DNA from: Candidatus Aquicultor sp.
GTDB taxonomy: Bacteria > Actinomycetota > Aquicultoria > Aquicultorales > Aquicultoraceae
Reading direction: 5' to 3'
Assembly (NCBI GenBank): GCA_036504445.1
Contig: DASXVE010000034.1
Span: forward strand, 62,001-126,000
DNA: 64,000 nt
Positions 16,225-61,624 of this stretch are shown piece by piece. Under the pieces are notes generated by a model, which ran no database searches, was not told the DNA's origin, and saw only the letters and a list, made by a program, of their open reading frames with translations. The position numbers were made by a program, and so were the translations under genes. How positions within the stretch are numbered: the first letter of the stretch is position 1; every line of letters begins with the position of its first letter.

Positions 16225-16246
16225 CAACATCGCAAAAGCATCCGAT

Positions 16247-16275
16247 AAGAGCCCGGGTTCGGGCTCTTTGTTTTT
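16247..16275 (+). terminator. Intrinsic terminator after DUF1385 gene
   Basis: A 9 bp stem, AAGAGCCCG (16247-16255) with CGGGCTCTT (16260-16268), has a GGTT loop and is followed by TGTTTTT. It ends the rpmE-DUF1385 unit. Confidence 0.85.
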
Positions 16276-16433
16276 AAACGAGCTCGGTTTGCGCGACAAC
16301 CACCGGTTTCGTGTTGTCTGACCCGTCAAGATTCATTATAATTAATAAGGTTACGCAATACTTTAGGCACGGGGCGCCTTGCGTGGGCGCCATCTTTATT
16401 TTCATTGTGTAGATACGTAGCCAGGTGAAAAAT

Positions 16434-36138: not shown

Positions 36139-37434
36139 ATGCCTTTGGCAGACCTTATAACTACAAAAACCGCACGTGTTGGAATCATCGGTATGGGCTA
36201 TGTAGGCCTTCCTCTGGCGGTTGCTATCGCCCAGGCAGGGTTTACTGTGACCGGCATCGACGTCGATAAGGCAAAGGTGTCAAGCATTAGCCGAGGTGAG
36301 AGCTATATCCCCGATGTTCCCACAGCCGACTTGAAAGACGCTGTTGATAAAGGGCTCTTTAGCGCGACGACAGATTTTTCAGTACTAAAAGACGCCGACG
36401 TTATCAGCATTTGCGTCCCGACGCCTCTTTCCGAGATGCGCGAGCCCGATATTACGTACGTGCGGGCCGCCGCAAGCGAGGTAGCCAAATATTTGCGTTC
36501 GGGACAGCTCGTTATCCTTGAGAGCACTACATATCCGGGTACGACCGAAGAAGTCCTTCTGCCGATGCTCGAAGAGAGCGGTTTGACGGTGGGGAAAGAT
36601 TTCTGGCTGGCGTTTTCGCCGGAGCGGGTCGATCCGGGTAATGAGAAATATAATATGAGCAACACGCCCAAAGTAGTCGGCGGCGTCAAATCGCAGTGCA
36701 CGGAGGCCGCGCGACTCTTCTATTCGCAGTTCGTCGGACAGGTTGTGCCTGTGTCGTCAACTCAGGCGGCGGAGATGACCAAGCTTTTGGAGAACATCTT
36801 CCGCTGCGTTAACATTGCCCTGGTAAACGAGCTTATGGTGCTCTGCGACCGCATGGGTATAAACATTTGGGAAGTAATCGAGGCAGCTTCATCGAAACCG
36901 TTCGGTTTCATGCCGTTCTTCCCGGGGCCGGGCCTTGGCGGCCACTGTATTCCGATTGACCCGTTCTATCTTTCTTGGAAGGCGCGCCAGTATGATTTTC
37001 ATACCGAGTTTATTGAGCTTGCCGGAAAGACGAATGAGGGTATACCATATTTTGTCGCCACAAAGGTAGGCGAAGCGCTTAACGCGCATGAAAAGAGCAT
37101 CAAGGGTTCAAATGTCCTGGTGCTTGGTCTGGCGTATAAGAAAGACATTGGCGACACACGCGAATCGCCGGCGCTTAAGATCATCACGCTTCTTGAGAAC
37201 TTAGGGGCGCACGTCACGTATCACGATCCGTATGCGAAACAAGCGATTATAGGCGCCAAAACCTATACATCGGTAGAGCTGACGCCGGCGGTCGTCAACG
37301 AGAGTGATTGCGTGCTCATAGTAACCGATCATACGAATGTCGATTACCAGATGGTTGCCGATAACGCGAAGCTCATCGTTGATACCAGGAATAAGCTCAA
37401 GAATTTCGCAGGAAGTAATATTGTCAGGATTTAA
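36139..37434 (+). CDS. wbpA: UDP-N-acetylglucosamine 6-dehydrogenase (WbpA type)
   Basis: Oxidises UDP-GlcNAc at C6 to the uronic acid, using NAD twice. Nucleotide-binding GMGYVGLPLAVAIAQAGF, the loop CVPTPLSEMREPD, ESTTYPGTTEEV, and the catalytic cysteine in GLGGHCIPIDPFYLSW identify the WbpA/WecC group of nucleotide-sugar dehydrogenases. 431 aa. TAGGAG precedes the ATG. The order of following genes supports UDP-GlcNAc as substrate. Confidence 0.92.
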   Translation: MPLADLITTKTARVGIIGMGYVGLPLAVAIAQAGFTVTGIDVDKAKVSSISRGESYIPDVPTADLKDAVDKGLFSATTDFSVLKDADVISICVPTPLSEMREPDITYVRAAASEVAKYLRSGQLVILESTTYPGTTEEVLLPMLEESGLTVGKDFWLAFSPERVDPGNEKYNMSNTPKVVGGVKSQCTEAARLFYSQFVGQVVPVSSTQAAEMTKLLENIFRCVNIALVNELMVLCDRMGINIWEVIEAASSKPFGFMPFFPGPGLGGHCIPIDPFYLSWKARQYDFHTEFIELAGKTNEGIPYFVATKVGEALNAHEKSIKGSNVLVLGLAYKKDIGDTRESPALKIITLLENLGAHVTYHDPYAKQAIIGAKTYTSVELTPAVVNESDCVLIVTDHTNVDYQMVADNAKLIVDTRNKLKNFAGSNIVRI

Positions 37435-37446
37435 TGGGGGATATAA

Positions 37447-38469
37447 GTGGTTAACGTTGGAGTCATCGGCTACGGTTATTGGGGGCCGAATTTGGTGCGC
37501 AACTTCGAGCAGATACCGTCGAGTAATCTCGTTGCGTGTTGTGATTTGAACCCCGACAATTTAAAGAAAGTGCAGGGGACTTACCCGCAGGTACGGGTAA
37601 CCCAAAACATAGATGATATTTTGCAGGATACGGCGATTGATGCCGTAATCATAGCGACATCGGCACCTACGCACCATGAACTCGCAAAAAAAGCGCTTCT
37701 CGCCAAGAAACATGTCATGGTTGAGAAACCGCTTACACTCAGCAGCGCTAGCTCAAAAGATTTAATCGACACTGCCGAATCCGTTAATCGAAGGCTGATG
37801 GTGGGGCATTTGCTGGAGTATCACTCGGCGGTCGAGCATGTAAAAAGCTTAATCGATGACGGCACGCTCGGCGATGTCCTCTATCTGTATACCCAGCGTC
37901 TCAATCTCGGCCAGGTACGAAAGGATGAGAACGCCTTTTGGAGTTTGGCGCCGCACGATATTTCGGTCATATTCTACTTGCTGGACGGGAAGAATCCGGT
38001 TGAAGTATCCGCGCGCGGGCAAGCATATATAACCGATGGCGTTGAGGACGTTGTGTTCGCATCGGTTTCATTCGCCGACAAGACGATGGCGCATATCCAC
38101 GTGAGCTGGCTCGATCCTCATAAGATTCGAAAACTTACCGTTGTGGGCACGAAGCGGATGGCGGTCTTTGATGATATGGAGGGCTCCGAGAAGATTCGCA
38201 TTTATGATAAAGGTGTCGGCGCGGAGCCGGTAGAAGATTACCGCTCATACGGCGAAGATCTGCGGCTTCGTTTCGGCGATATTACAATCCCCAGCGTTAA
38301 GATGAAAGAGCCGCTTCGCACCGAGTGCGAGCACTTTATTTCGTGTATCGAAAACGGGCAAATACCGCGAAGCGACGGATATGACGGCCTGCGGGTTGTG
38401 CAGGTGCTCGAGGCCGCGCACAAGTCACTGAAAAACGGCGGCCAACCGGTCAGAATCACGGAGGTATAG
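37447..38469 (+). CDS. wbpB: UDP-GlcNAcA 3-dehydrogenase (WbpB type, Gfo/Idh/MocA family)
   Basis: Oxidises C3 of UDP-N-acetylglucosaminuronate to the 3-keto sugar. The Rossmann start GVIGYGYWGPNLVRNF and the EKPLT motif (MVEKPLTL) with its conserved lysine define the Gfo/Idh/MocA family, and GHLLEYHSAV follows. 340 aa. GTG start 12 bp after wbpA. In Pseudomonas the WbpB and WbpE reactions are linked; here wbpD lies between them. Confidence 0.9.
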   Translation: MVNVGVIGYGYWGPNLVRNFEQIPSSNLVACCDLNPDNLKKVQGTYPQVRVTQNIDDILQDTAIDAVIIATSAPTHHELAKKALLAKKHVMVEKPLTLSSASSKDLIDTAESVNRRLMVGHLLEYHSAVEHVKSLIDDGTLGDVLYLYTQRLNLGQVRKDENAFWSLAPHDISVIFYLLDGKNPVEVSARGQAYITDGVEDVVFASVSFADKTMAHIHVSWLDPHKIRKLTVVGTKRMAVFDDMEGSEKIRIYDKGVGAEPVEDYRSYGEDLRLRFGDITIPSVKMKEPLRTECEHFISCIENGQIPRSDGYDGLRVVQVLEAAHKSLKNGGQPVRITEV

Positions 38470-38474: not shown

Positions 38475-39215
38475 ATGACCGCGTTTATTCATGAGACCGC
38501 TCGAATCCCCGAAAGCGCGGTCTTAGGCGAAAACTGCGTAATTCAAGCCGGCGTTGAGCTGGGCGATGGCGTGGAAATCGGTAACAATGCGGTCATCCAC
38601 GAGGGCACAAAAATCGGTGCCAACACCGTGGTTGGCGATTGCGCCGTCGTGGGCAAGCAGCCCAGGCCGCCGAAAACCAGCACACTCTCATATACCGAGC
38701 CGTTTGCACCGCTTGTGCTTGGCGAAGGCTGCACGGTCGGCTCGAGCGCGGTACTCTACGCCGGCACGACAATCGGCAACAATTCCATGGTTGCCGACCT
38801 TGCTTCAGTTCGCGAAAATTGCGCCATCGGCGACTACTCGCTCGTCGGTCGCGGCGTCTGCGTCGAAAACGGCGTAAAAATCGGAGATTACACCAAGGTG
38901 CAATCAAACGCCTACATTACGGCCTATACAGTGCTGGAAGACCGGGTATTTATCGCGCCGTGCGTAACCACAACCAATGATAATTTTATGGGGCGCACCG
39001 AAAAACGGTTTAAATTTATTAAGGGCGCCCATGTCAAGCGGGGCGCACGTGTCGGCGGTAACTCGATTCTGCTGCCGGGTATCACGATAGGCGAGGAAGC
39101 GTTTATAGCTGCCGGCTCTGTAGTAACGCGCGACGTACCGCCTAAGAAATTGGTCATGGGGGTTCCGGCTAAAGTCACGCGCGACGTACCTGAGGATGAG
39201 CTTTTGCCTGAATAG
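38475..39215 (+). CDS. wbpD: UDP-2-acetamido-3-amino sugar 3-N-acetyltransferase (WbpD type)
   Basis: Left-handed beta-helix acetyltransferase with many hexapeptide repeats (AVLGENCVIQAGVELGDGVE, then IGNNAVIHEGTKIG), KRGARVGGNSILLPG, and the end GVPAKVTRDVP. It acetylates the 3-amino group made by the WbpE step. 246 aa. The ATG is 5 bp after the wbpB stop. A longer repeat region is interrupted near PRPPKTSTL, as in the Pseudomonas and Bordetella enzymes. Confidence 0.88.
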   Translation: MTAFIHETARIPESAVLGENCVIQAGVELGDGVEIGNNAVIHEGTKIGANTVVGDCAVVGKQPRPPKTSTLSYTEPFAPLVLGEGCTVGSSAVLYAGTTIGNNSMVADLASVRENCAIGDYSLVGRGVCVENGVKIGDYTKVQSNAYITAYTVLEDRVFIAPCVTTTNDNFMGRTEKRFKFIKGAHVKRGARVGGNSILLPGITIGEEAFIAAGSVVTRDVPPKKLVMGVPAKVTRDVPEDELLPE

Positions 39216-39278
39216 GGGCGTAGCATGTGCTCATGTTTCATATGTATCTTTCACAACGACACACATTTACGTACGCTT

Positions 39279-39351
39279 GCCCGAGCTATCGGGCATCTGC
39301 TTTTTATGGCTATCGAGCGGTAGCCGAGATAGCAAACAAAAGTGCTATAAT
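39279..39351 (+). promoter_or_regulatory. Weak terminator-like hairpin and new promoter between wbpD and wbpE
   Basis: GCCCGA (39279-39284) and TCGGGC (39289-39294) form a short stem followed at 6 bases by TTTTT. Then TGCTATAAT (39343-39351) is an extended -10 element, 31 bp before wbpE, without a clear -35. The 166 bp gap contains no gene; the open frame starting at 39196 is an upstream extension of wbpE. Confidence 0.4.
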
Positions 39352-39381
39352 ATGGTTTTGAACCGGAAACAAGGAGGATAT

Positions 39382-40491
39382 ATGGGTGTTCCATTACTCG
39401 ATCTAAAGGCGCAATACAGCTCAATTCAGGATGAGCTCGAGGCAGCCGTCCTTGCGACAATGAGGAGCGGAGGCTATATTCTCGGGCCGAAAGTTGAGGA
39501 ATTTGAAAAGGCGATCGCCGCATATTGCGGTGTTGATTATGCGGTTGGTGTGGCAAACGGCACCGACGCACTGGTACTGTCGCTCGACGCGATAGGTGTC
39601 GGCCCCGGCGATGAGGTTATCACCACCCCGTTTACATTCTATGCGAGCGCCGAGTCGATCTCACGTCTCGGTGCAACGCCGGTGTTCGTAGATATCGATC
39701 CAAAGACATATAACATGGTGGCCGGGCAACTCGAGGCGAAGATTACCTCGAAGACAAAGGCGATCATCCCGGTTCACATCTTCGGCCAACCGGTCGAGAT
39801 GGATGAGATAAACGAAATCGCGAAGAGGCACGGCATCAAAGTTATCGAAGATGCCTGCCAGGCGATCGGTGCAGAATATAAAGGGAGGAAAGTCGGCTCA
39901 CTCGGCGATGCGGCTTGTTTCAGCTTCTTCCCGAGTAAAAACCTCGGTGGGGCCGGCGATGGGGGCATTGTTGTCACCGACAACAAAGAGATTGCCGATA
40001 AAGTGCGCGCGCTCAGACAACATGGGAGCACGAAGAAGTACTTCCATAGCTTCGTGGGGTACAATAGCCGCCTTGATGCACTGCAAGCATCGATTCTGAG
40101 CGTTAAGCTCAACTACATAGATCAGTGGAACAACGGTCGTAGGGAGAAGGCGCACGCATATAATGAGTTCTTTGCCGCCACCGATATCGTAACGCCGGAA
40201 GAACTCGCGCACGTTAAGCACGTGTATCATCTCTACATTATTAGAGTTCCCAACCGTGCGCAGGTTGAAGCGGCGCTTAAAGAAAACGGTATCGGGCACG
40301 GCGTCTATTATCCGGTTCCGCTGCACCTGCAGGATGTCTATACAGACCTCGGGTACAAAGAGGGATATCTACCGGTGAGCGAGGCGGCAGCGAAAGAAAC
40401 GATTGCCATACCGTGTTATCCGGAGCTAAAAGCCCAGGATGCGGAGTTCATAGCCGGTCTTGTGAAAGATACTGTCGGCGTAACTGTTTGA
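39382..40491 (+). CDS. wbpE: UDP-3-keto sugar aminotransferase (WbpE type, DegT/DnrJ/EryC1/StrS family)
   Basis: PLP aminotransferase giving the 3-amino sugar from the 3-keto intermediate. Family marks are VPLLDLKAQY, GVANGTDALVLSL, IEDACQAIGAEY and the PLP lysine in FFPSKNLGGAGDGG. GYNSRLDALQA follows. 369 aa from the ATG at 39382, which has a perfect AAGGAGGA site; the frame upstream to 39196 is not part of the protein. Confidence 0.93.
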   Translation: MGVPLLDLKAQYSSIQDELEAAVLATMRSGGYILGPKVEEFEKAIAAYCGVDYAVGVANGTDALVLSLDAIGVGPGDEVITTPFTFYASAESISRLGATPVFVDIDPKTYNMVAGQLEAKITSKTKAIIPVHIFGQPVEMDEINEIAKRHGIKVIEDACQAIGAEYKGRKVGSLGDAACFSFFPSKNLGGAGDGGIVVTDNKEIADKVRALRQHGSTKKYFHSFVGYNSRLDALQASILSVKLNYIDQWNNGRREKAHAYNEFFAATDIVTPEELAHVKHVYHLYIIRVPNRAQVEAALKENGIGHGVYYPVPLHLQDVYTDLGYKEGYLPVSEAAAKETIAIPCYPELKAQDAEFIAGLVKDTVGVTV

Positions 40492-40515: not shown

Positions 40516-41580
40516 ATGAAAATCGTAACAATCGTCGGTGCACGGCCCCAGTTTATTAAAGCTTTGCCGGTTTCAAACGAGATTCGAACAACGTGCACGG
40601 AAGTGCTGGTTCACACCGGCCAGCACTACGACCACAACATGTCGGATATCTTCTTTGAGGAGATGGGTATCCCGCGTCCGGACTATCACCTTGGGGTGGG
40701 CTCGGGTACGCAAGCCGATCAAACTGCGCAGATGCTCAGCAGGATCGAGGAGGTCCTTTATACCGAAAAGCCGGATATCCTGCTTATCTACGGCGATACT
40801 AACTCGACGCTCGCCGGTGCGCTGGCGGCGGCGAAGCTTCATATACCGGTTGCTCACGTTGAAGCGGGTCTTCGTTCATTTGACAAAAAAATGCCGGAGG
40901 AGATAAATCGCATCGTGGCCGACCACGTATCCGAGGTTTTATTCTGCCCGACGCAGACCGCTGTAAATAACCTAAAAAATGAGGGCATAACCGAGGGAGT
41001 TGAGCTGGTCGGCGACGTTATGTACGATGCGGCGCTCTACTTCGGCAGCATAGCTGAAGACCGCTCACGAGTTCTGGAGATCTTCGGGCTTGAGCCGAAG
41101 GGCTACTATCTGGCAACGATCCACCGCTCGGCAAATACCGATGATGTCGATAATTTACGGGCGCTTCTTAGCGCGTTCGTAGAGTCCGGTAAAAACATCG
41201 TGTTTCCGGTACATCCCCGGACGAAAAAAGTTATGGCGGATGCCGGTCTTGACCGCATTATCAAAGGTACGCATATCCGGGTGGTCGACCCCGTCGGCTA
41301 TATCGATTTCTTACGTCTTGAACGCAACGCCGTTAAGATCCTGACCGATTCGGGAGGCGTTCAAAAAGAAGCATTCTTCTTTTCGGTGCCGTGTATTACG
41401 CTTCGAGATACAACCGAGTGGGTGGAAACAGTGGAGAGCGGGTGGAACGTCCTGGTCAATATCGATGTAACCAAGTTGTTGCATACAATCGATACCTTCA
41501 ATCCGGTCGGACAACCGCCGCAATTGTTCGGCGATGGGAAAGCTTCGTTTTATATCGCGCAACGGTTAACATCCGCCTAG
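40516..41580 (+). CDS. wbpI: UDP-N-acetylglucosamine-type 2-epimerase (WbpI type)
   Basis: Converts the gluco- to the manno-configuration at C2 of a UDP sugar. GARPQFIKALPVS, TGQHYDHNMSD, YGDTNSTLAGALAAAKL, VAHVEAGLRS, PEEINR and LTDSGGVQKEA are all signatures of the non-hydrolysing 2-epimerases. 354 aa. As the fifth gene after wbpA-B-D-E it is best read as the epimerase for the diacetamido-uronic acid, giving the mannuronic form; a WecB role on UDP-GlcNAc cannot be excluded. Confidence 0.88.
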   Translation: MKIVTIVGARPQFIKALPVSNEIRTTCTEVLVHTGQHYDHNMSDIFFEEMGIPRPDYHLGVGSGTQADQTAQMLSRIEEVLYTEKPDILLIYGDTNSTLAGALAAAKLHIPVAHVEAGLRSFDKKMPEEINRIVADHVSEVLFCPTQTAVNNLKNEGITEGVELVGDVMYDAALYFGSIAEDRSRVLEIFGLEPKGYYLATIHRSANTDDVDNLRALLSAFVESGKNIVFPVHPRTKKVMADAGLDRIIKGTHIRVVDPVGYIDFLRLERNAVKILTDSGGVQKEAFFFSVPCITLRDTTEWVETVESGWNVLVNIDVTKLLHTIDTFNPVGQPPQLFGDGKASFYIAQRLTSA

Positions 41581-41715: not shown

Positions 41716-42780
41716 ATGTCATTGAAAAACACTGCAAAAGACACAAAAGACACAAATAAAGACGCAAAACAATTGCGAATATGGATCGATATCACCAATA
41801 CGCCGCACGTTTTGATATTTCGTCCCTTAATTAAAGAATTGCAGGCTCAAGGGCACGAGGTTTTGGTAACAGCCCGGGAGTTTGCGCAAACCAGCCAACT
41901 CCTCGACCGGTTTGGGATCAAACATACCCTTATTGGAAAGCACCAGGGCAAAGAGGTTTACCGGAAGATCTACGGGTTGGCCTCCCGCACAAGCAGGCTT
42001 ATCGGCTACGCAGCAGGTAAGCGGTTCAACCTTTCAATCGGGCACGGTTCAAATGATTGTGCGCTCGCATCGTTTTTCTTGCGTATCCCGCACGTAACCA
42101 TGTTTGATTACGAGTTTGCGAAAGCGATGCACAGCATCAACCTGCGGGTTGCTACCAAGGTGCTCATACCGGATATGATTCCATCGGAGCCGCTTTACGA
42201 GTATGGCGGGACCGACGCAAAGATAGATAAATACCCCGGCCTGAAAGAGGAGTACTATCTTGCGGATTTCTCACCGGATGAGTCGGTTGTCGATGAGATC
42301 GGGTTGGACATCGGCAAGATAGTTATCGTTATGCGTACGCCGCCGGATGTCGCGCTGTACCATCGTTTCCATAATCCGATTTTCATGGATGTGCTTCGCA
42401 AGTTCGCCGCGCGCGACGACATACAAGTGGTGCTTTTACCGCGTACACCGGAGCAGCGCGATGAGGTGCTTAGTTTCGGGTTTAGTAACGTCTTTATCCC
42501 GGCAAAAGCGGTCGATGCGCAGAGCCTCATCTACTATTCAGACCTGGTTATCAGTGCCGGCGGCACGATGAACCGTGAGGCGGTTGCACTCAACACACCG
42601 GTGTATACGCTGTTTTCAGGCAGAATGGGAGCAATAGATACAAAACTTATCGCACAGGGTAAAATGATGAAACTCACCGACCCGGATCACATCGAGATCA
42701 AGAAAAAAGCCGTCTACGGGCAGGGTCAAACCCGCGATATTAATGTATTATTAGATAGGATAAAAGAGATTGCCAGGTAA
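41716..42780 (+). CDS. DUF354 family GT-B-like protein
   Basis: 354 residues. After a Lys/Thr/Asp-rich 20-residue head the domain starts IWIDITNTPHVLIFRPLI, typical of DUF354, a family with the fold of UDP-sugar epimerases and GT-B glycosyltransferases. Later marks are SIGHGSNDCALASFF, HVTMFDYE and the nucleotide-binding-like SAGGTMNREAVALNTP. It lies in the surface sugar cluster, so a glycosyltransferase role is likely but not shown. Confidence 0.82.
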   Translation: MSLKNTAKDTKDTNKDAKQLRIWIDITNTPHVLIFRPLIKELQAQGHEVLVTAREFAQTSQLLDRFGIKHTLIGKHQGKEVYRKIYGLASRTSRLIGYAAGKRFNLSIGHGSNDCALASFFLRIPHVTMFDYEFAKAMHSINLRVATKVLIPDMIPSEPLYEYGGTDAKIDKYPGLKEEYYLADFSPDESVVDEIGLDIGKIVIVMRTPPDVALYHRFHNPIFMDVLRKFAARDDIQVVLLPRTPEQRDEVLSFGFSNVFIPAKAVDAQSLIYYSDLVISAGGTMNREAVALNTPVYTLFSGRMGAIDTKLIAQGKMMKLTDPDHIEIKKKAVYGQGQTRDINVLLDRIKEIAR

Positions 42781-43356: not shown

Positions 43357-45105
43357 GTGTCTGAATTGGTCGCTCCAACGCCATCAAAAAAAGTAGCAAT
43401 TTCTACAGCATATCTGCTGGTATTTACCATAGCAGCTTTAGTGGGTTATGCCGGGCTGTATTTGTCACCCCTGCAATTCCTGGTTGCAACGGTGGGGCTT
43501 CTTCTTGTGGCGATCGCGCTGGTAAAAACCGAGTTTGCAATTGTGCTGCTCGTCGTTATCGCGCCGCTCGCCAATATTAAAGTCAACTTGGGTCCGATAC
43601 CGCTCGATGTGGTAACGATTTGTATGGGGCTCATTATCCTCTCGTACATGATCCACAATGCGGGGAAGAGAAACTCGTCTACCGCAACACCATTTACCTG
43701 GGCGTTCTTAGCATTTTTCATAATATCGGCAATTTCGATGGTTATCGCGCCGTCAATGGTCGAAGCGGCCACAACGTTTATGCGTTTTGCCGGATATTTC
43801 TTACTCGTTGCAGTGATAGGCCGTTCGGTGAAATCAAGGGAAACACTCACGTGGATACTTGTCCTCATGGTTGCAGCGGGGGCTGTTACGGCACTGTACG
43901 GCATCTATCAATACATCTACATACCGGATAGTTCGGCGAAGATCGGCGTCTACGGTCTCGGCCAGGATGTCCTGGCCCGTGCGGGCTCCACTTTTGGTAA
44001 CTCCAATTTTTATGCGGAATACCTGGTGCTGATCGTACCGATTGGTCTTGCATTAACCATTGGTTCACGTAATTGGTTCAGGCGAACGATAATCGGGAGT
44101 GCCACCATACTGTTGTTTATCGCGCTGGTTCTTACCTACACGCGCGGTAGCTGGCTTGGCGCCGCCATAGGTATCGTACTCATGTCGCTTCTTACGGAGG
44201 CGTGGCTCTTCTGGGTATGGGCAGGTCTTTTCGCGGTTGCGCTGGTTGCCGCACCCGGTGTCGCCAACCGCGTTGCGAGCATGGCGGACATGAGCGGCGG
44301 CACCGCCGGTTTTAGAATGCGCCTGTGGCATATCGCCTACGGCATCATCCGCGAGCACCCGCTTATCGGCATCGGCATCGGCAATTACTACGAAGCGTTT
44401 ACGAATTACATATTCAAACATCCCGAGTCGAGCGTTGGCTGGGTTATTTACGGGGCGCATAACTCGTATCTCACGCTCTTTGCTGAGACCGGCGTCTTCG
44501 GCATCCTTTCCTTTATTGCAATTATTCTTATTTCAATACGCTACGGTCTATTCCTGGCGCACGCAAAAGCGCAGGATAAGTACCTCTCATGGATTAATTC
44601 GGCGCTTTTTGCCGGTGTCGTCGGTTTTGCGATCAACAGCTTAACCAGCAACAGCTTCCATCACCCGCAGGGCGCGGTTTTCTTCTGGGTCGCGTTAGGC
44701 CTGCAGGTTGCTATCGGAAATATGGCAGCCGAGCCAACCGGTGTGCAAACATCGCCCATAGTAATCGGGAGCTACATCCTCCGGCCTTTTCGCACGTCGC
44801 TCGCATCATTTAGAGCAGCGGCTGCCAGCCACCAGATCAAGCGCATTACCGCTCGCATAGGCGGGTCATGGCAGGAGAGTAGACTCGCCGCATTTTTCTG
44901 TAAAGAACCAAGTCAAATTAATCTATTGTCGGGCAGTCGGGCGTATCAACCGGTTATAGCGGCGCTCGAGAAGTTTCGCGGCGCGGTTGAGAACTCGTTC
45001 TTCTATGCGGTTACCGGCGGAATCGTTGCGCGCCCGGTTGTTATGGCGCTTGTCTTTGTCATGGCAGCCGTTATGCTTCGCATGTTAGCGGGGGCGGTAA
45101 CCTGA
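43357..45105 (+). CDS. O-antigen ligase / Wzy_C family polymerase
   Basis: 582-residue membrane protein with about 11 helices. The Wzy_C periplasmic loop is recognised by LTYTRGSWLGAAIGI, then HPLIGIGIGNYYEAF and YGAHNSYLTLFAETGVFGIL. It should polymerise or ligate lipid-linked glycan outside the membrane. The last 130 residues form an unusual extension, half soluble, with a further helix near the end. GTG start at 43357. It overlaps the next gene by one base. Confidence 0.88.
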   Translation: MSELVAPTPSKKVAISTAYLLVFTIAALVGYAGLYLSPLQFLVATVGLLLVAIALVKTEFAIVLLVVIAPLANIKVNLGPIPLDVVTICMGLIILSYMIHNAGKRNSSTATPFTWAFLAFFIISAISMVIAPSMVEAATTFMRFAGYFLLVAVIGRSVKSRETLTWILVLMVAAGAVTALYGIYQYIYIPDSSAKIGVYGLGQDVLARAGSTFGNSNFYAEYLVLIVPIGLALTIGSRNWFRRTIIGSATILLFIALVLTYTRGSWLGAAIGIVLMSLLTEAWLFWVWAGLFAVALVAAPGVANRVASMADMSGGTAGFRMRLWHIAYGIIREHPLIGIGIGNYYEAFTNYIFKHPESSVGWVIYGAHNSYLTLFAETGVFGILSFIAIILISIRYGLFLAHAKAQDKYLSWINSALFAGVVGFAINSLTSNSFHHPQGAVFFWVALGLQVAIGNMAAEPTGVQTSPIVIGSYILRPFRTSLASFRAAAASHQIKRITARIGGSWQESRLAAFFCKEPSQINLLSGSRAYQPVIAALEKFRGAVENSFFYAVTGGIVARPVVMALVFVMAAVMLRMLAGAVT

Positions 45106-46463
45106 TGGGTCAAGCACAAACGAGCGGAAGCCCTAAGCTCGGCGCATTTTCTCCAGGCGTCTTTTTACCACTGTTTGTCCTGAGCTTTTATCTCGTTGGC
45201 CTAACGCTCGTTCAGTTCTCACTGCGAGCCCTCGGTATCGTTGCGCTAAGTATCGCCGTCTACCTGCTGGCCTCGCGGTTGACCGCGCGATTCATCGATA
45301 CCACCGATCAACAGACCTCCCGGCGCACAGTACTTTCCGGGAATTACTTCGAGCGGCTGCTCATTTCATTATGTGTGATCTTCGTTATCGACCTTGCGCT
45401 TAAGGGGGTTGCGCCGGTTGCGGTGCGGGCGCCGCTCTATCTAATTATTCTCAGCGCCGCATTCTATTTTCTCGGGCGCAAGAAAACCGATATTCCCGGA
45501 ACCTATTTCTTGAGCGCCGGCGTCGCCATGATACTTCTTTATGTGGTACCGGCATTCATCTCATACGGGATGTACGGTGCGTATCTCAACCGCACCGGCG
45601 GTTTGATGCCGGCGTTTCTCGTCGGGATAGGTACCATTACTACGGTATACGGCCTGATGAAGGTGGCGTCACTGCTCTCAACGCGCAACCTTTTTATCAT
45701 GATTGGCCTGATTACGCTGGTTGCCGGGCCGTTTATGGCGGCGATCATCGGCTACCGCGCTTACGCGATCATCTACATTATGCCGCTAATCTTCCAGTAC
45801 TATATCGAGCGCAAACCAGCCGTTACCGTAAAAACGGCGTTTGTCGCCCTCGGCGTAGTGGCCGCGATCTTTTTGTATACGTATTTCGCCACCTCGGTTA
45901 CCCGCGGCGTTATCTACATGTTTGCGCCGCTCGATTCAGCAAAAGCGCCCCCGTTCGTCGTGTCCTCGATGGAGGCGGGCCACTATACCGACAAAGACAT
46001 GAACTTCTCCAACGCCGAAGCGCGCAGTAAAGTCATAACCAGGCCGTTCTTTACCTACAAGGTGTTTCTCGATGTCATCGATGTGAGTTACCCGTGGGGC
46101 AAATCGCACGGAAAGCTTACGCTCTCATTGATGCCCGGGGTGACAAAGGGAAGAGCCACGACCATTAGTATTCTGAAAAAGCCGCTCTCGACGTCGTTTT
46201 TCGGCCTGCCGTTTTTGGAATTCGGGGTTGCCGGCGTGATGCTGTACGGACTTATGCTTGGGGTATGCCTTGCGGTTGCTTCGCGCCTGCGAGATAAGAA
46301 AACCTATGCGTTGATTCTGACCATCATAATGCTATGGCTTGACACCGGTCCCTCGGTTTGGTGGCACTGGTTGCCGTTTGCGAGCTCGTTCATTGCTCTG
46401 GGTGCTATTCTGCTTAGCTACTTTGTACAGCCAGAAGTCGTGGTAACGGAAGACCGGCTGTAA
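45105..46463 (+). CDS. Wzy-like polysaccharide polymerase
   Basis: 452 residues with about 12 membrane helices and one large outer loop (about residues 270-345, including SSMEAGHYTDKDM and PWGKSHGKLTLSLMPG). The loop ends at TSFFGLPFLEFGVAGVMLYG, the pattern of the oligosaccharide-repeat polymerases found in archaea and bacteria. Precise family is uncertain. The start overlaps the ligase stop (TGATG). Its last 132 bp overlap the end of the opposite-strand GT39-like gene. Confidence 0.7.
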   Translation: MGQAQTSGSPKLGAFSPGVFLPLFVLSFYLVGLTLVQFSLRALGIVALSIAVYLLASRLTARFIDTTDQQTSRRTVLSGNYFERLLISLCVIFVIDLALKGVAPVAVRAPLYLIILSAAFYFLGRKKTDIPGTYFLSAGVAMILLYVVPAFISYGMYGAYLNRTGGLMPAFLVGIGTITTVYGLMKVASLLSTRNLFIMIGLITLVAGPFMAAIIGYRAYAIIYIMPLIFQYYIERKPAVTVKTAFVALGVVAAIFLYTYFATSVTRGVIYMFAPLDSAKAPPFVVSSMEAGHYTDKDMNFSNAEARSKVITRPFFTYKVFLDVIDVSYPWGKSHGKLTLSLMPGVTKGRATTISILKKPLSTSFFGLPFLEFGVAGVMLYGLMLGVCLAVASRLRDKKTYALILTIIMLWLDTGPSVWWHWLPFASSFIALGAILLSYFVQPEVVVTEDRL

Positions 46464-48605
46464 ACCTCCTTGCTTGACGAGGCCGTCGGTTGCAACTACT
46501 ATCGGCCGGTAAATCATACTGAACGGCGAATTTATAGGGAGGCTGTAGGTATACCGCCTGATTTCGTCGGTCGCAAACACATAATCCACTTGCTCTCGCG
46601 AGAGTATATCCATCAATTGTTCCGGTGTTCTTATCCCGACTTGGTTGATCCTACCGTTATCAAGCGGGCTTAACATAAGAATCGGCCGCTTATCAAGGTA
46701 GTATGTCCGGTTATCGACCACCATAGCTATCCGCTGGTCGGTGGGAATATAGGTGTTGATATAATTCTGCGCCTGATACAGCATGTTGCCCTTAAGAAAC
46801 TCCTCGTGGCTCCGCACCGCGAGCCCGATTGCCATCGCATCGCCCCTGGTGGCGTACAGTAAATTTACACTGGCAAGCACGCCGGCGATCAGAAGGATGG
46901 CTGTTGCCAGCTTAAGGTAGAGACGATTGCCGATAAACGTGTCGATGCCGGCCGCGATGACGGGAACCAATATAACGATGCCGGGCAGCGCATAATTTGC
47001 GGTTTGCGCGAGGAGCAGCGTCCAGGGGACAAGAAGCCCGAGGGCGACAATAACAGGGAGCAGAAGGGGCGCTGGGGCCTTGCGAAGGCGCAGCAGCGCA
47101 AACGGTATACATGCCGAAAACGCAACAAATGCGGGGCCGATGGTTTTTTGTGGTATATCGCGAAAGGTGAGATGCCAGAGCACGGCTAGATCGTCCGGCA
47201 GGTTGTTCGTCATCTGATTGGCTGAGCGGATGGTTGATTGAAAGAGGGTGGTTGCCGCAGGGTTCCAATCGCGTCCGCCGAATAGCTCCATAAATGTCGG
47301 GTATACCGGGTTTCCTGTATAAATATAATTTTTAATGAGCCAGGGGCCGACACCGATAAACGCCGCGAGCGCAAAGCCGACCGCCATCAAAGCGGCACGC
47401 ACAGCTTCGGAAGGGCCGCGACCGACCGAGAGTACGATCAGCGAGACGACCAGGAATCCCGAAGCAACCAGCATGAAAAACCCCGAGTATTTACTGCCGG
47501 CCGCAAACCCGAAGAAAGCTCCGGCGACGTATAGCCACATCATATTTTTAGTCTCGCGCCAGCCGACAAGCGCATAGACACCCGCAAAGGCAAAGAGCGC
47601 GAGAACCGTGTCGTTGTTGTTGAGCGTAATATTGTAGGCAAACGCGGATACGGTGCATAGCAGCATTACCGCCAGCACTGCCGTCCGGTACGAGAAGAAC
47701 CGCCGGGCAAACACAAAGACACCGAGCACCACCCAGCACGCGATAAAATAGGTCAAGAGCTGGGGAACCGTATCGTCTTTAATCAAAAGCCCGAGCATAA
47801 AGAGCATCTCACCGTTGAGGGGGTAGTTAGCGGGCAGGAAGTCCCTGATGTAATGGATTTGGTGAGCCAGTATATAGGCTTTCGGCACGGCAATGTGGTA
47901 CAGCAACGCGTCATACGTCCAAGTCGGCGTCCAGGCGGCCATAAAACCGAAACCAAGAAGGGCAACGATGATTAAAGCAAGCGGACTTGGTGCGGCAGAT
48001 AGTTTGATGGTATCGGCAAAGCGGCCCCTAAATTTGGAGAACGCTCGCACCGCGCCCAGGATAGCGAGAGTCGCAACTGCTATACGGGCCGGTTCCTTGT
48101 AAATAGCGCCGGCCATGCCGGCAATAAATACGAAGACCGCACATATGCCGAATCCGGCCGTGATGGATACGAATAGACGGTCGAGCCCGTCGATATCGAG
48201 GCAGAGCAGCTCAATAACTTTGTCGCCTACATAGTAAACAGCGGCAATGATGGCTGCAAAAAACGCCAGTTCTGCCAGGTTCGATGATACGTAGCTACTG
48301 AAATACTTGCCTTCTAAAGCGATTCCAAACGAGGCGATAATAATTACGGTATACGCCAGTGTTAGAAGCGCCGGCAACTCACGTAAACCGGCCCCGATGT
48401 GGCTGTAGCGACCGAGGAAGATATACCAGACGATTGCATAGAGAGCAAGACCGATAATAATAACCGCGCGGACGTCGATAGCGCTCAGCAGGGAAGCAAG
48501 TTGAATTGTTGGGGAGAAATAGCGCGCATAAATCCAAATTGCCCAACAGAGGGTCGCAAACGTCCCGATTCGTATCGCCAGGGGTTTTAGTTTCGTGCGT
48601 TCCAT
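46332..48605 (-). CDS. GT39/ArnT-like membrane glycosyltransferase
   Basis: 757 residues with about a dozen helices in the first 600 and an extracytoplasmic C-terminal domain. The region PTWTYDALLYHIAVPKAYI with its acidic loop, followed by ANYPLNGEMLF, is the pattern of PMT/GT39-type enzymes that use polyprenyl-phosphate sugars. The conserved C-terminus ends at RYHDFWLYKV; a further tail of about 28 residues (rich in Arg, Gln, Pro) is encoded opposite the end of the Wzy-like gene. It is the last gene of the minus-strand block 46.3-51.7 kb. Confidence 0.85.
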   Translation of the reverse strand: MERTKLKPLAIRIGTFATLCWAIWIYARYFSPTIQLASLLSAIDVRAVIIIGLALYAIVWYIFLGRYSHIGAGLRELPALLTLAYTVIIIASFGIALEGKYFSSYVSSNLAELAFFAAIIAAVYYVGDKVIELLCLDIDGLDRLFVSITAGFGICAVFVFIAGMAGAIYKEPARIAVATLAILGAVRAFSKFRGRFADTIKLSAAPSPLALIIVALLGFGFMAAWTPTWTYDALLYHIAVPKAYILAHQIHYIRDFLPANYPLNGEMLFMLGLLIKDDTVPQLLTYFIACWVVLGVFVFARRFFSYRTAVLAVMLLCTVSAFAYNITLNNNDTVLALFAFAGVYALVGWRETKNMMWLYVAGAFFGFAAGSKYSGFFMLVASGFLVVSLIVLSVGRGPSEAVRAALMAVGFALAAFIGVGPWLIKNYIYTGNPVYPTFMELFGGRDWNPAATTLFQSTIRSANQMTNNLPDDLAVLWHLTFRDIPQKTIGPAFVAFSACIPFALLRLRKAPAPLLLPVIVALGLLVPWTLLLAQTANYALPGIVILVPVIAAGIDTFIGNRLYLKLATAILLIAGVLASVNLLYATRGDAMAIGLAVRSHEEFLKGNMLYQAQNYINTYIPTDQRIAMVVDNRTYYLDKRPILMLSPLDNGRINQVGIRTPEQLMDILSREQVDYVFATDEIRRYTYSLPINSPFSMIYRPIVVATDGLVKQGGLQPVFRYHDFWLYKVAKQNSTQSNERARKRQPVPPNRGTGVKP

Positions 48606-48729: not shown

Positions 48730-50481
48730 CTATTGCTTGGCGAGTGGCACAAACAATTTATACAGCATGTTTACCGCTTGTTCGCGTGTAACCCCGAGTG
48801 TCGGCCGGAAATAGTTCGGCTCGTATGGCTCCATGAGCCCGCTGGAGAGGGCCAGAACAATGGAGTTTTTATCCCGCACGCCGGTTGCTATATCGGATAC
48901 CGGTGTGCTGGGCTGGATCGATTTTGCACTTGAAACATCAAACGCCTTGCATAAGATGGACGCCATATCGGCGCGGTTGACCGGATCGTTCGGCCGGAAG
49001 TAACCATCGGGGTTGCCCATCTTCAAGCCGTGCTCGTAGGCTGCCTCGATGTAGCCCCAATCGGCCCGCTCTTTGTTGATATCGCGGTAATAACCCTGAT
49101 ATGTCGCCAAGGGCGCCCAACCGCGACCCCGCGCAATCCAGGTGATAAGTTCAGCCCGGCTCGTATTGGCCCCTGCGCCAAACCAACCGTCTTTGCCTAA
49201 AACTATCCCGCGCTCGGTAAGCACGCTGATTGCTTTAAACGACCGGTGTGTCGGCGGGATATCAAAGAAACGGTACTTTTGATAGAACGCAAATTTGTCC
49301 GCATACGTTCTAAATGCCGGTACTTTTGTGATCGCATACAGCTTCTTGAGTAGATCGACGTGGATCTTATGGTATCCGTAGCTGGCACGATCTCCCTGCA
49401 GCAGCGAGTAATTCGACCAGTAACCCAAGTCGTATTGCTCTAAGTGATACTGGGCTTCACCAACGCCGGCGTTAAAGAGCTTTAGGACCTTTGTATTGCC
49501 GGTTGCCTCGTAGAAATTGTGCATGCTGTAGAGCGTAAATAAATAGCCGTTAAGAATGCGCAGCTTGTTTGTCGCGGCAACCTCAAGGTACCAATTGCCG
49601 TGGTTATCAATGTCGGTGACACCACCCTCGGTATAGGGCACCTTGAAAGAATTCAGTACGAGTTCGGCGGCTCTTAAATACTTCTTGTCGTCAGTAATCG
49701 TATACGTTTTACCGAGGACGTCCAGGATAAGCCCCTGCGCCATGCCCGACGCCCACGGAGCATCGAATTTATACTTATTAAACTCAAGGTCGAAATAGTA
49801 TTCCCAAATGTAATATTTGCCGACGCCTTTGTATTCTTTGACGATGGCGTTATCCAGGATAGCATCCGCTATAGCGACAACTTGCTTGTTGTCGCCCTGT
49901 GCGTATTTTTCCAGCGCAATATTGCAGGTTGTGACCGGGTTAAAGTGTACGCCGTAATTCGGGTAATAGACATAGGCAAGGTGCCCGCCCTCATATTGCC
50001 CGAGAATTTGCGCTTTACCCGACGCCGTATTGCCGGCAGCATAGTAGGCCGTTGTTTTTTCCAGGTCGCGCATGATCGCGCGTGCGCGCGTGCGCCCGGT
50101 AGCCGTGTTGGTGTTCAGCTGAGATAGTAGATCAAGGCTGAATATTACTTCCGAAGCCTCTTTTTTTCTGCCTTCACTCATGAGCTGTCTTACCAACGCC
50201 TGGGCTGATTTAACGCTTTCGGCGGGCTGTTTCGGTTGTTTTTCTCGCAGGCGATTCTGCAACGGTTTTGTCGGTGCGACTTTTGGGCTGGTCACGTCGG
50301 TGCTGGGCTCCGTTTGCGTTGCAAAGTTCGGTAGGGTCGGCGTATCGAAGTGCTGGGTCACGCTCGCTAATGAGCCGGGATAATAAAAATAAGCCCATAG
50401 CATAAGTGACATCCCGCACGCGATAATCGCTGTATGCGCTCTGTACCCGGACTTCCTCTTTACCTTATAGTAGTAAAGCAT
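48730..50481 (-). CDS. D-glucuronyl C5-epimerase domain protein with three SLH repeats
   Basis: 583 residues. N-terminal membrane anchor or signal (about 16-38), a Pro/Thr/Lys linker (40-90), then a helical (alpha/alpha) catalytic region of the D-glucuronyl C5-epimerase family: VYYPNYGVHFNPVTTCNIAL, ASGMAQGLILDVLGKTY, GGVTDIDNHGNWYLE and YHKIHVDLLKKLY. Three SLH repeats end the protein (about 410-583; SRAEL, NRADM, TREQA as the repeat cores). It should epimerise glucuronyl residues of a polymer at the cell surface, held by SLH binding. ATG 50481 has AAGGAAATT upstream; the frame to 50610 is not supported. Confidence 0.88.
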   Translation of the reverse strand: MLYYYKVKRKSGYRAHTAIIACGMSLMLWAYFYYPGSLASVTQHFDTPTLPNFATQTEPSTDVTSPKVAPTKPLQNRLREKQPKQPAESVKSAQALVRQLMSEGRKKEASEVIFSLDLLSQLNTNTATGRTRARAIMRDLEKTTAYYAAGNTASGKAQILGQYEGGHLAYVYYPNYGVHFNPVTTCNIALEKYAQGDNKQVVAIADAILDNAIVKEYKGVGKYYIWEYYFDLEFNKYKFDAPWASGMAQGLILDVLGKTYTITDDKKYLRAAELVLNSFKVPYTEGGVTDIDNHGNWYLEVAATNKLRILNGYLFTLYSMHNFYEATGNTKVLKLFNAGVGEAQYHLEQYDLGYWSNYSLLQGDRASYGYHKIHVDLLKKLYAITKVPAFRTYADKFAFYQKYRFFDIPPTHRSFKAISVLTERGIVLGKDGWFGAGANTSRAELITWIARGRGWAPLATYQGYYRDINKERADWGYIEAAYEHGLKMGNPDGYFRPNDPVNRADMASILCKAFDVSSAKSIQPSTPVSDIATGVRDKNSIVLALSSGLMEPYEPNYFRPTLGVTREQAVNMLYKLFVPLAKQ

Positions 50482-50679: not shown

Positions 50680-51663
50680 TTAATATGCGCCGTGTCGGAG
50701 GAGGACCTGGCGAATTGTAGCGAGGAATATTTTAGCGTCGAGGACAAGCGATTGATTCTCAACATATTCGATGTCTTTCATGAGGCGCTCGGTAAAGGTA
50801 AGGTTACCGCGCCCGTTGATTTGCGCAAGACCGGTAAGGCCGGGTTTAACATCCAGGCGCTTAAGAGTCATTGCATCCGACGTCTCAAGCTCTTCAGGCA
50901 CGAGCGGGCGAGGCCCGACCATGCTCATTTCTCCTTTGGCGATATTGATGAGCTGTGGCAGCTCATCCAGGCTGGTGGTTCGCAAGAACTTACCGAACGG
51001 AAACACCCGCGGGTCGTCTTTTATCTGGCACGCCTCATCTTCCTGCTCGTTTAACAGCTGCAGGCGGTCCACAATTTCATCCGCATCCGGGCTCATTGTG
51101 CGGAACTTAATCACGTTGATAATCCGTCCGTGCTGGCCTAGACGTTTTTGGTGGAAGAAGATCGGGCCGGGCGAGCCGACTTTTATTCCAAACGCAATAG
51201 CAAGCATAATCGGGGCGAGCAGCAGGAGACTGACCGTGCTGACGAGCATATCGACGATCCGTTTAACAGCCGGGTAAATCGCCCGGTCCCGCTGGCTGAC
51301 CGGTGCATAGTGGGCCCGCTGTTCGCCGATAACGCCACCGAACATGAGAAGCGCCAAGATCGGGATATATCCCAGCAGTTTAATATGTAGCGGGAAGGGA
51401 AGCACTGCGTGCACCCCAAATAGAGTCGTTAATCCCTTAAAAAGAAAATAGGCTACTATCCCGAACATCCAGCCGTCGGTTTTTGAGCGCCAACCCGCCC
51501 AGTAGCCGCAAAAAATTGCGGTCAGATAGTGGGCGATACTGATCAAGACAACGGCAACCCAAGCTTCCGGTGGCAATAGCGCCTTGTAGAGCAAGACAAA
51601 TGACCAGAAGAACAGGAAAGAAAAGATGCCTGATTCGATTATTGCACGGACTTTGTTAAGCAT
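50680..51663 (-). CDS. Undecaprenyl-phosphate sugar phosphotransferase (initiating enzyme)
   Basis: 327 residues. Four N-terminal membrane helices (about 10-115) precede a bacterial sugar transferase domain: RIVDMLVSTVSLLLLAPIM as the re-entrant helix, GSPGPIFFHQKRLGQ, VIKFRTM, TSLDELPQLINI and GPRPLVPEE. It loads a sugar phosphate on undecaprenyl phosphate to start a surface glycan, a role filled by wecA in the matching mycobacterial locus. GAGGTATAG precedes the ATG at 51663. Confidence 0.92.
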   Translation of the reverse strand: MLNKVRAIIESGIFSFLFFWSFVLLYKALLPPEAWVAVVLISIAHYLTAIFCGYWAGWRSKTDGWMFGIVAYFLFKGLTTLFGVHAVLPFPLHIKLLGYIPILALLMFGGVIGEQRAHYAPVSQRDRAIYPAVKRIVDMLVSTVSLLLLAPIMLAIAFGIKVGSPGPIFFHQKRLGQHGRIINVIKFRTMSPDADEIVDRLQLLNEQEDEACQIKDDPRVFPFGKFLRTTSLDELPQLINIAKGEMSMVGPRPLVPEELETSDAMTLKRLDVKPGLTGLAQINGRGNLTFTERLMKDIEYVENQSLVLDAKIFLATIRQVLLRHGAY

Positions 51664-51722: not shown

Positions 51723-51910
51723 GTGAGCGACGACTCCGTTGCTACCGGGGGCTTGTTTCGAAACGAACTAACCTGGAAATCATTATATATGGAATTATGT
51801 GATATTTCTCCGGTATTTGAATAACCAACTAACGCGCCAAGCTTAACGAATTGAGTACCGGTTGGTTTTTGTGCTATTCTTGCGCTTAGGTCATTTTGGA
51901 GGATTGTGTT

Positions 51911-53248
51911 TTGTATAACGGTAGGCACACATCGGCTAATTCGGATATGTCAAAACTCCGGAAAACCGGATATATACGAGTATTTATCCTTTGGATGCTC
52001 TTAATAATACTTATTGTCGGCGCTGCGGGTTTCGTGTACGCGCGCTTTCTCGAAGAGCGTATACACGTTGGCAGCTTACTTAATGGATCTGATAGCGCGT
52101 ATAAGCATATCACTCCACGTGCGCAGGATTCCGACCCGATAACGTTTCTGCTTCTAGGCAGCGACAAGCGCTGGTCTATAAAAGAAGACCCCGGTCGTTC
52201 CGACACCATCATGGTGCTTCGCATCAACCCGCAAAAAAAAATCGCATATCTAATTTCGTTCCCGCGCGATTCACGGGTCGATATTCCGGGGCACGGTAAA
52301 AAGAAGATTAACGCCGCATACCAGTACGGCGGCCCCGATCTCATGATCCAGACGATACATCAGCTGACCGGCCTTGAAATCAACCACTTCGCGGTCGTTG
52401 ATTTTGACGGGTTCAAGGAAATCGTCAATGCGCTCGGCGGCATCGACATCAATGTCGAAAAAGATATTAAGGACCACTTCCAGGGAAGGGATATCTTCAT
52501 TCCGGCGGGCAGGCAACACCTCGAAGGGCAAACTGCACTTGATTATGTGCGCGTTCGCCACGTCGATGATGATTTCGGCCGCATGGGGCGCCAGCAGCAG
52601 TTTTTGAAGGGAATTATGGATAAAGTGCTGAGCTTAGGCGGAGTCCTCCGTATTCCCCAGCTTGCCAATATCGCATCGAATAATATCACAACCGATAACG
52701 GCTTGAGTCTTGGCGAGATGGCATCGTATGCCAACATGGTGCGTTCGGTCGGGCGCTCGAATCTCCACATGCTAACGCTTCCCGGTACATGTGAAATGAT
52801 CGGCGATGGCAGCTACGTTGTGCTCGATCAAGGTAAGATGGCCTGGATATTGGATCGCATAAACAACGATCTACCGCCTGAGCTTACCGCAGAAGAGAAG
52901 CAAATCCAAAATATCACGGTTGACGTGCAAAATGGCACGGGTACATCCGGTATGGCGAAGAAGATGGCTGATAAGCTCTCTGCAAACGGTTTTAAAGTCG
53001 GGCAAGTTGGCAACGCGGAGAATTTCAACTACTATAACACGCGCATCATCGCACCTGGGGAAATGGTCGATCTGGCCAAGACGGTTCAGACGCAGCTGGG
53101 GTTCGGGCGTGTGGTAATGCAGACTGCAACCGAGGGATCGTTCGTACCCAATATCACCGTTATCGTCGGTCGGGATTTTTCCAAGTACCAGGTCTCCGGC
53201 GCATCCGGGTCAGGTGGCAGCAGCGGTAGCGGCACTGCATCACAGTAG
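51911..53248 (+). CDS. LytR-CpsA-Psr (LCP) family wall polymer ligase with LytR_C domain
   Basis: Attaches lipid-linked polymers to peptidoglycan outside the membrane. A short cytoplasmic tail, one helix (about 22-45), then the LCP domain with LLLGSDKR, RSDTIMVLRI, SFPRDSRVDIPG (catalytic arginines) and VRVRHVDDDFGRMGRQQQ. The LytR_C domain follows (about 335-425; VDVQNGTGTSGMA), then a Gly/Ser tail. 445 aa from TTG 51911, which is 7 bp after GGAGGA; the TTG at 51896 overlaps that site and is less likely. Confidence 0.92.
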   Translation: MYNGRHTSANSDMSKLRKTGYIRVFILWMLLIILIVGAAGFVYARFLEERIHVGSLLNGSDSAYKHITPRAQDSDPITFLLLGSDKRWSIKEDPGRSDTIMVLRINPQKKIAYLISFPRDSRVDIPGHGKKKINAAYQYGGPDLMIQTIHQLTGLEINHFAVVDFDGFKEIVNALGGIDINVEKDIKDHFQGRDIFIPAGRQHLEGQTALDYVRVRHVDDDFGRMGRQQQFLKGIMDKVLSLGGVLRIPQLANIASNNITTDNGLSLGEMASYANMVRSVGRSNLHMLTLPGTCEMIGDGSYVVLDQGKMAWILDRINNDLPPELTAEEKQIQNITVDVQNGTGTSGMAKKMADKLSANGFKVGQVGNAENFNYYNTRIIAPGEMVDLAKTVQTQLGFGRVVMQTATEGSFVPNITVIVGRDFSKYQVSGASGSGGSSGSGTASQ

Positions 53249-53317: not shown

Positions 53318-54304
53318 TTACGGAGTGCAATAGCTTGAATATGTTGCCGCAAGCCTCTCGGCAACCGAAATGTAGTCGTGATACTTCACAACCCAGTCGC
53401 GGCTTGCCGTGCCGATTTCCTCACACAAGCGCGGGTCGCCCAGTAAGCGTTCAACCTTGGCGACGATTTCATCGGCCCGTTTTGCTTGAACGAGCGGCGG
53501 CGCTTCGGCATACCAACTCTGGTACTCAAAATCACTCACCACAGGGCGTGCGCACGCCATAGCTTCCATTTCGGACATCCCCATAATACCGAGCTCGAAT
53601 TGCCCAACGATCACCTGGTAGCGGGGGATAAGGGTAGCGATTTCGCTGTGCGATACCGGCGGGATAAAGTTCACGAAGCTTTTATCTTTAAATCGTGCCA
53701 GGTCCGGCCCCCACGCGAACGCATCGATTTCGATCTTGGGATTGCGCTCTTTGAGCTTCTCAAGCGCCTCAAATGCTACGTCGATTCCTTTCACCGGGTC
53801 AATACGGCTAATGAGGAGCACTTTGCCGTGGGTCCCGTCAAACCCTTTGGGCTCAAACAGCTCGGTCTGAATGGGATTCGGTAAAAACATGGCGTCACCG
53901 CGCACGGTATCGGCATGCACCTTTAAATCCGGCGTTGAGTAAAACACACGGTCCGCTCGATTGAGACACGTGGTAGTTACGTTCTTGAAGGCAGGGCGAT
54001 AGAGATTCTTGCGGATATCGGTGCCGTGGCAATGCAGCCAGTACCGGTAGTTGCCGAGTATCCCCAAGACGCCAAAATACGCATAGTGAATGTGTACTAT
54101 GTCATACTCCTCTTTTAGTATTTGTTTCTTTAAAGACCGCGCATCCGCGATGCGGTTAGTTACGACACGAAGCTTACCGAGTTTTCCGGATATGTTCACG
54201 CCGGTGTACGGTTGGTATAGCTGGGCGTCAACCCCGACTTTTTGCAGCCCTTTTACCAGGCCGTCAGGAACGTTTGCCACGTTGTTTACATGTAATACCT
54301 TCAT
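53318..54304 (-). CDS. GT4 family glycosyltransferase
   Basis: 328-residue cytoplasmic GT-B enzyme. The N-terminus MKVLHVNNVANVPDGLVKGL and the donor half with LLISRIDPVKGIDVAFEAL, then MGMSEMEAMACARPVV place it in glycosyltransferase family 4. ATG 54304 follows GGAGAG at good spacing. The gene is convergent with the LCP gene and divergent from the SLH amidase. Donor and acceptor sugars are unknown. Confidence 0.88.
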   Translation of the reverse strand: MKVLHVNNVANVPDGLVKGLQKVGVDAQLYQPYTGVNISGKLGKLRVVTNRIADARSLKKQILKEEYDIVHIHYAYFGVLGILGNYRYWLHCHGTDIRKNLYRPAFKNVTTTCLNRADRVFYSTPDLKVHADTVRGDAMFLPNPIQTELFEPKGFDGTHGKVLLISRIDPVKGIDVAFEALEKLKERNPKIEIDAFAWGPDLARFKDKSFVNFIPPVSHSEIATLIPRYQVIVGQFELGIMGMSEMEAMACARPVVSDFEYQSWYAEAPPLVQAKRADEIVAKVERLLGDPRLCEEIGTASRDWVVKYHDYISVAERLAATYSSYCTP

Positions 54305-54560
54305 TATTTTACTCTCCAATGGTGCCGCTATGGCGGCAACAGATTTTTTTGGCTATCGGGTACTTAATATAAAACACTCGTTCCCGGTTGGCAATGCAAG
54401 CTCTTAGTGGTACACTAATGCGAGATTACTTAGTCCGCTTAGCCTGCCTATGTTCTAGATAGTTAAGAGAGACTCACTTAGGGTAATAATAGAGCGGCAC
54501 ACAAACCCAGCAACCTAAAGAATTTCCAGAATCTGCCGATATTTAGTTCATAGTAGCGTT

Positions 54561-56686: not shown

Positions 56687-56708
56687 CAACTAGTGTTTGG
56701 AGTTTGCG

Positions 56709-61418: not shown

Positions 61419-61597
61419 AAAAATTAAACAAATATTCGCAGCTTTACCCGTAACTTTTACTATCGCGAAAGCGTCTATATATTCGTAAGGAAACCCTGAA
61501 AGACCAAATTCTTATTATGCGCATAAGCGCTTAACTTATATATGATTTACACTGTCGTGGAAGGAGGTGGACAATATTAAGACATTTAGTATAAACA

Positions 61598-61624
61598 ATG
61601 GAATTCGAAAGGACGGTGCTTTAA
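61598..61624 (+). promoter_or_regulatory. Eight-codon upstream frame ending at the SLH protein start
   Basis: A perfect AAGGAGGT (61561-61568) has no ATG, GTG or TTG at normal spacing. An 8-codon frame starting at ATG 61598 ends in TAA whose last A is the first base of the SLH protein ATG. This could couple translation or be chance. Confidence 0.3.

Follow-up and report, generated by a model that had tools for sequence, protein, structure and literature searches.

Enzymes of the GLCE family flip sugar acids in animal heparan sulfate, and C5 epimerization at the polymer level is known for glucuronic acid (GlcA) in glycosaminoglycans and for mannuronate in alginate. The alginate C5-epimerases AlgG and AlgE also edit uronic acid at the polymer level outside the cytoplasm; their fold, a beta-helix, is unrelated to the GLCE type. 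GLCE itself (EC 5.1.3.12; structures 4pw2, 4pxq, 6hzz, 6i01 and 6i02) acts in a polymer context and has a C-terminal helical catalytic domain in addition to beta-hairpin and beta-sandwich domains (PMC13308652). The key residues of the human enzyme are E499, Y500, N510, Y560 and Y578 (PMC13308652), and Tyr578 and Glu499 form the proton-transfer pair (PMC12834895).

Bacterial C5-epimerases of the GLCE family are already known. Raedts et al. characterized the GlcA C5-epimerase of Bermanella marisrubri RED65 in 2013; PMC13308652, which cites this work, says that the enzyme uses a GLCE-like mechanism, and, unlike the protein described here, it is reported as active on a heparin-type substrate. Others are named "D-glucuronyl C5-epimerase family protein" in RefSeq, including proteins from Priestia and Deinococcus plasmids (L035, L036) that share a PF06662-type domain with EEYP or DEYP and the other key residues. 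These differ from our protein in being standalone domains that keep Y500 and lack SLH repeats. On Priestia megaterium plasmids (L035, L086), the gene lies between genes for a DegT aminotransferase, a GNAT acetyltransferase, wecB and a glycosyltransferase, which is another tie of the family to amino-uronic pathways.

WbpA/B/E/D/I constitute the pathway to UDP-ManNAc3NAcA in P. aeruginosa and T. thermophilus (PMC10622841), and Streptomyces has documented wall polymers of ManNAc3NAcA (PMC13274773). The Streptomyces teichuronic acid clusters and the Wbp pathway resemble our locus in having a UDP-ManNAc3NAcA-type pathway and an Actinomycetota wall polymer, and the passages that describe them mention no C5-epimerase. 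A literature search of incomplete coverage yielded no published SLH-anchored C5-epimerase.

We analyzed a window of 64,000 nucleotides (contig 34, positions 62001-126000) from a genome of 2.57 Mb with a completeness rating of 100 percent; the named relatives closest to it are MAGs of Candidatus Aquicultor and of other Actinomycetota. The gene of interest and the parts of its product are as follows.

48730..50481, minus strand: C5-epimerase-SLH protein, 583 aa (open reading frame, PF06662 and SLH matches, start conserved among orthologues)
50365..50481, minus strand: putative N-terminal signal peptide or signal anchor, residues 1-39 (sequence reading)
50038..50226, minus strand: helical region preceding the catalytic domain, residues 86-148, kept in orthologues
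49291..49818, minus strand: C5-epim_C catalytic domain, residues 222-397 (E300, N311, Y358 and Y370 kept; V301 for Y500)
49123..49272, minus strand: SLH repeat 1, residues 404-453, weak, SRAE motif
48934..49095, minus strand: SLH repeat 2, residues 463-516, strong, NRAD motif
48745..48876, minus strand: SLH repeat 3, residues 536-579, weak, TREQ motif

A sequence-only reading had placed an SLH-anchored glucuronyl C5-epimerase here. The open reading frame (583 codons plus stop) reproduces its coordinates, and the Pfam scores bear out a minus-strand C5-epimerase-domain gene with SLH repeats (C5-epim_C, PF06662, 142.6 bits versus a cut-off of 23.3; SLH, PF00395, 88.4 bits versus 20.8). This is the sole PF06662 match in the genome. 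A longer in-frame start at 50610 was considered and rejected: the upstream frame is not conserved in orthologues, and all full-length orthologues share the MLYYYK start at 50481, which is thus the better start. Because orthologues are 50-60 percent identical and gene order is the same in relatives, the gene is not a chance open reading frame. Its product begins with a basic n-region and hydrophobic residues 13-33, followed in the orthologue alignment by a conserved S-[LF]-A, and we read residues 1-39 as a putative signal peptide or signal anchor.

In a sequence search of solved structures, zebrafish and human GLCE were nearest, followed by SLH proteins. An AlphaFold model made from 23 aligned sequences has a mean pLDDT of 82.4, with values >90 across most of residues 91-400 and low confidence in the linker after the N-terminal segment. 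For this model, Foldseek ranks 1-8 are all human or zebrafish GLCE chains (including 4pxq, 4pw2, 6i02, 6i01 and 6hzz; E 2.5e-9 to 1.1e-8; rmsd 2.7-2.8 across 211-215 columns), and the Sap SLH trimer follows (TM 0.81-0.82 by target length). We did not find the GLCE beta-hairpin and beta-sandwich domains, as 211-215 columns align and residues 86-148 are helical; the Aquicultor protein instead adds this N-terminal helical region and the SLH anchor. The fold rules out an alginate-type epimerase. GH76 mannanases, which appear among lower-ranked matches, were rejected as the closest fold (E 3e-4 or worse, rmsd about 14, far weaker than GLCE). Thus, the protein almost certainly belongs to the GLCE (C5-epim_C) family and has its fold. 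The calculated pI of residues 130-403 is 8.6, which fits an anionic substrate.

In an alignment with the GLCE fragments from the structure search, human E499, N510, Y560 and Y578 correspond to E300, N311, Y358 and Y370, and Y500 corresponds to V301. The sequence, the fold and most residues of the active site therefore uphold the GLCE-type domain proposed earlier, and the expected match to the catalytic residues of known enzymes holds for E499, Y578, Y560 and N510 and fails at Y500. All five positions, including V301, are invariant across orthologues. The valine might be taken as a loss unique to the orthologue group, but actinobacterial L039 and L045, outside that group, carry it too. In a domain tree of 35 rows, from which L045 was left out, the orthologues form one well-supported group and L039 is placed elsewhere; deep branches are weak.

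The best surviving alternative is that catalysis has been altered, so that the protein binds, lyses or hydrolyzes a uronic polymer and does not epimerize it. The change from Y500 to valine in every orthologue favors this, as does the helical toroid fold shared with GH76 mannanases. However, no orthologue departs from the proton-transfer pair, N510 or Y560, the same valine occurs in L039 and L045, and the GH76 matches are distant by comparison. We consider altered catalysis unlikely; from sequence and model, the C5-epimerase-SLH protein is probably an active epimerase.

Other C5-epim_C proteins vary in both active site and architecture. In one group (f49; L042, L044, L047, L048 and L054), E499 is replaced within a HYLIYS-type motif, and Y500 and Y578 are kept. 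These proteins may not be epimerases, and the existence of members without E499 suggests that the family is possibly not uniformly one of epimerases. A second SLH-bearing protein, in another genome of the same bacterial family (L011/L028, G001), has the SLH-anchored C5-epimerase architecture with three SLH repeats, but differs in its canonical WYEEY motif, an added F5/8 type C (discoidin-type) domain and a location outside any polysaccharide cluster; the reading frames on both sides look like housekeeping genes. In L041 (G242), the C5-epim_C domain is joined to CW_binding_2 repeats, another wall-anchoring solution.

The three SLH repeats of our protein comprise a strong middle repeat and weak or degenerate repeats 1 and 3, and in the model they fold like the Sap SLH trimer. 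An arginine of the TRAE type can be read in each repeat (SRAE, NRAD and TREQ). SLH domains bind a pyruvylated ligand that CsaB produces. We identified csaB in the genome (equivalog TIGR03609, 304 bits versus 213), and SLH anchoring is credible because of it. The pyruvyltransferase and a TagA/WecG-type glycosyltransferase form a single fused frame of 592 aa (L021), at 137699-138511 of contig 34 of the source genome (G000), some 12 kb after the window stops. The role of the TRAE-type motif in SLH domains has been described (PMC6081394). The N-terminal hydrophobic segment, the three repeats and csaB thus support the earlier suggestion that the protein is exported and held on the wall, and we infer export and wall location from sequence on these grounds. 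The genome has 62 SLH matches. Three further SLH proteins are encoded in the window (54614-55915, 56697-58436 and 61567-63924): an amidase, a SpoIID-type protein and one without another Pfam match.

The genes around the epimerase are listed below.

36139..37434, plus strand: WbpA-like UDP-HexNAc 6-dehydrogenase (by relatives)
37447..38469, plus strand: Gfo/Idh 3-dehydrogenase, WbpB-like by family and position only
38475..39215, plus strand: WbpD/QdtC-like hexapeptide N-acetyltransferase (by relatives)
39196..40491, plus strand: WbpE-like aminotransferase of the DegT family (by relatives)
40516..41580, plus strand: WbpI-like UDP-GlcNAc3NAcA 2-epimerase (best solved relative, the Thermus thermophilus enzyme)
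41716..42780, plus strand: DUF354 protein (Pfam), which we read as glycosyltransferase-like
43357..45105, plus strand: Wzy_C (O-antigen ligase/polymerase) membrane protein (Pfam)
45105..46463, plus strand: O-antigen-polymerase-like protein (O_anti_polymase, Pfam); its presence tracks the epimerase across the family
46332..48605, minus strand: PMT_2 / GT-C-type membrane glycosyltransferase (Pfam), dispensable
50680..51663, minus strand: Bac_transf polyprenyl-phosphate sugar-1-phosphate transferase for chain initiation (PF02397, 210 bits)
51896..53248, plus strand: LytR-CpsA-Psr (LCP) protein (Pfam), which presumably links the polymer to peptidoglycan
53318..54319, minus strand: GT4 glycosyltransferase (Pfam), syntenic in relatives

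Polymerase and transferase neighbors had been predicted, and Pfam matches to Wzy_C, O_anti_polymase, PMT_2, Bac_transf, LytR-CpsA-Psr and GT4 confirm them. The PMT_2 and O-antigen-polymerase-like genes share 132 bases in a tail-to-tail overlap (46332-46463), and L016, L017 and L018 show an overlap as well. The proposed upstream pathway for uronic sugars is likewise supported by the nucleotide-sugar dehydrogenase, Gfo/Idh protein, hexapeptide acetyltransferase, DegT aminotransferase and 2-epimerase. All five enzyme classes of the WbpA/B/E/D/I pathway are present and clustered, WbpB by class only. The 2-epimerase scores 422 bits against Thermus UDP-GlcNAc3NAcA 2-epimerase, versus 328 for the next kind. 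The identification of WbpB is weak, as the Gfo/Idh protein does not reach the NCBIfam cut-off and the solved structures closest to it belong to other Gfo/Idh enzymes. By sequence, the operon adjacent to the epimerase resembles the WbpA/B/E/D/I pathway that leads to UDP-ManNAc3NAcA.

The genome encodes two PF00984 dehydrogenases, both nearest to HexNAc-type enzymes: one passes the UDP-ManNAc dehydrogenase equivalog, and the nearest solved relatives of the other are HexNAc-type. A PF00984 search of this near-complete genome, on which the absence rests, identified no UDP-glucose-dehydrogenase-like gene. We favor an N-acetylated uronic acid as the substrate. Plain GlcA is unlikely, because the PF00984 dehydrogenases are of the UDP-HexNAc type and the clustered pathway is WbpA/B/E/D/I-like. 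The "glucuronyl" label of the sequence-only reading is thus probably wrong, as the pathway points to N-acetylated hexuronic acids.

In relatives, the gene order is GT4, LCP, Bac_transf, epimerase, usually PMT_2, O-antigen-polymerase-like, Wzy_C, DUF4330, DUF354 and WbpI, with WbpE/D/B/A after WbpI where the contig reaches that far. Across near-complete genomes of one bacterial family (G010 is incomplete), the epimerase orthologue occurs in seven (G000, G001, G002, G003, G005, G006 and G008, where it is split across two contig ends), and the O-antigen-polymerase-like gene occurs in the same seven. G004, G007 and G009, all near-complete and of one genus, lack both but keep wbpD. Because the two genes are present or absent together while wbpD stays, the epimerase tracks the polymerase and not the sugar pathway, although the three absences fall in one genus of one family and possibly reflect a single loss. 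Neither PMT_2 nor Wzy_C is an obligate partner: both are present in G004, where the epimerase is absent, and in G003 and G006 the epimerase has no PMT_2 gene next to it. In the genus without epimerase and polymerase, we also observed genes for UbiA-like, FAD-oxidoreductase and SDR proteins (L083, G007, 14192-17200), which we tentatively read as a decaprenylphosphoryl-arabinose route.

The epimerase might instead edit the glycan of an S-layer glycoprotein, or another pyruvylated secondary wall polymer, and not the product of the cluster. The abundance of SLH matches in the genome and a second uronic-acid-type sugar, predicted to be UDP-ManNAcA, are in keeping with this; PMT_2 and Wzy_C proteins can act in protein glycosylation in other systems. 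We consider it improbable, however, since the distribution of PMT_2 in G003, G006 and G004 and of Wzy_C in G004 is uncoupled from that of the epimerase, which follows the O-antigen-polymerase-like gene across genomes. The least probable alternative is a true D-glucuronyl C5-epimerase that would act on ordinary GlcA in the polymer and yield IdoA, as happens in heparosan. The protein does resemble GLCE in domain family, in fold and in most of its catalytic residues, but the HexNAc-type dehydrogenases, the lack of a UDP-glucose-dehydrogenase-like gene in the PF00984 search, the WbpA/B/E/D/I-like pathway and the loss of Y500 argue against it.

We infer the activity, substrate, chemistry and biological role of the protein as follows. 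It is predicted, with slightly better than even confidence, to be a secreted, SLH-tethered C5-epimerase that edits a wall polymer of 2,3-diacetamido-hexuronic acid. The glycan would be started by the Bac_transf enzyme, polymerized by one or more Wzy-like proteins and placed on the wall by the LCP protein. The SLH repeats would hold the epimerase outside the membrane on pyruvylated wall polymer, where its basic cleft may bind the anionic chain. Either Y370 or E300 would take the C5 proton of a uronic residue and the other would return a proton from the opposite face, so that D-manno residues become L-gulo (or D-gluco residues L-ido). More tentatively, inversion after polymerization may give a wall polymer of ManNAc3NAcA a mixed manno/gulo composition, in alginate-like editing by a heparan-type enzyme with one dedicated polymerase.

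If this reading is right, polymer-level C5 epimerization would extend to the N-acetylated uronic acids of a bacterial wall, carried out by an enzyme fixed at the site where its product is used. Studies of mechanism and enzyme engineering would also gain a simple GLCE-type catalytic domain that lacks beta domains and carries a natural Y500V substitution.
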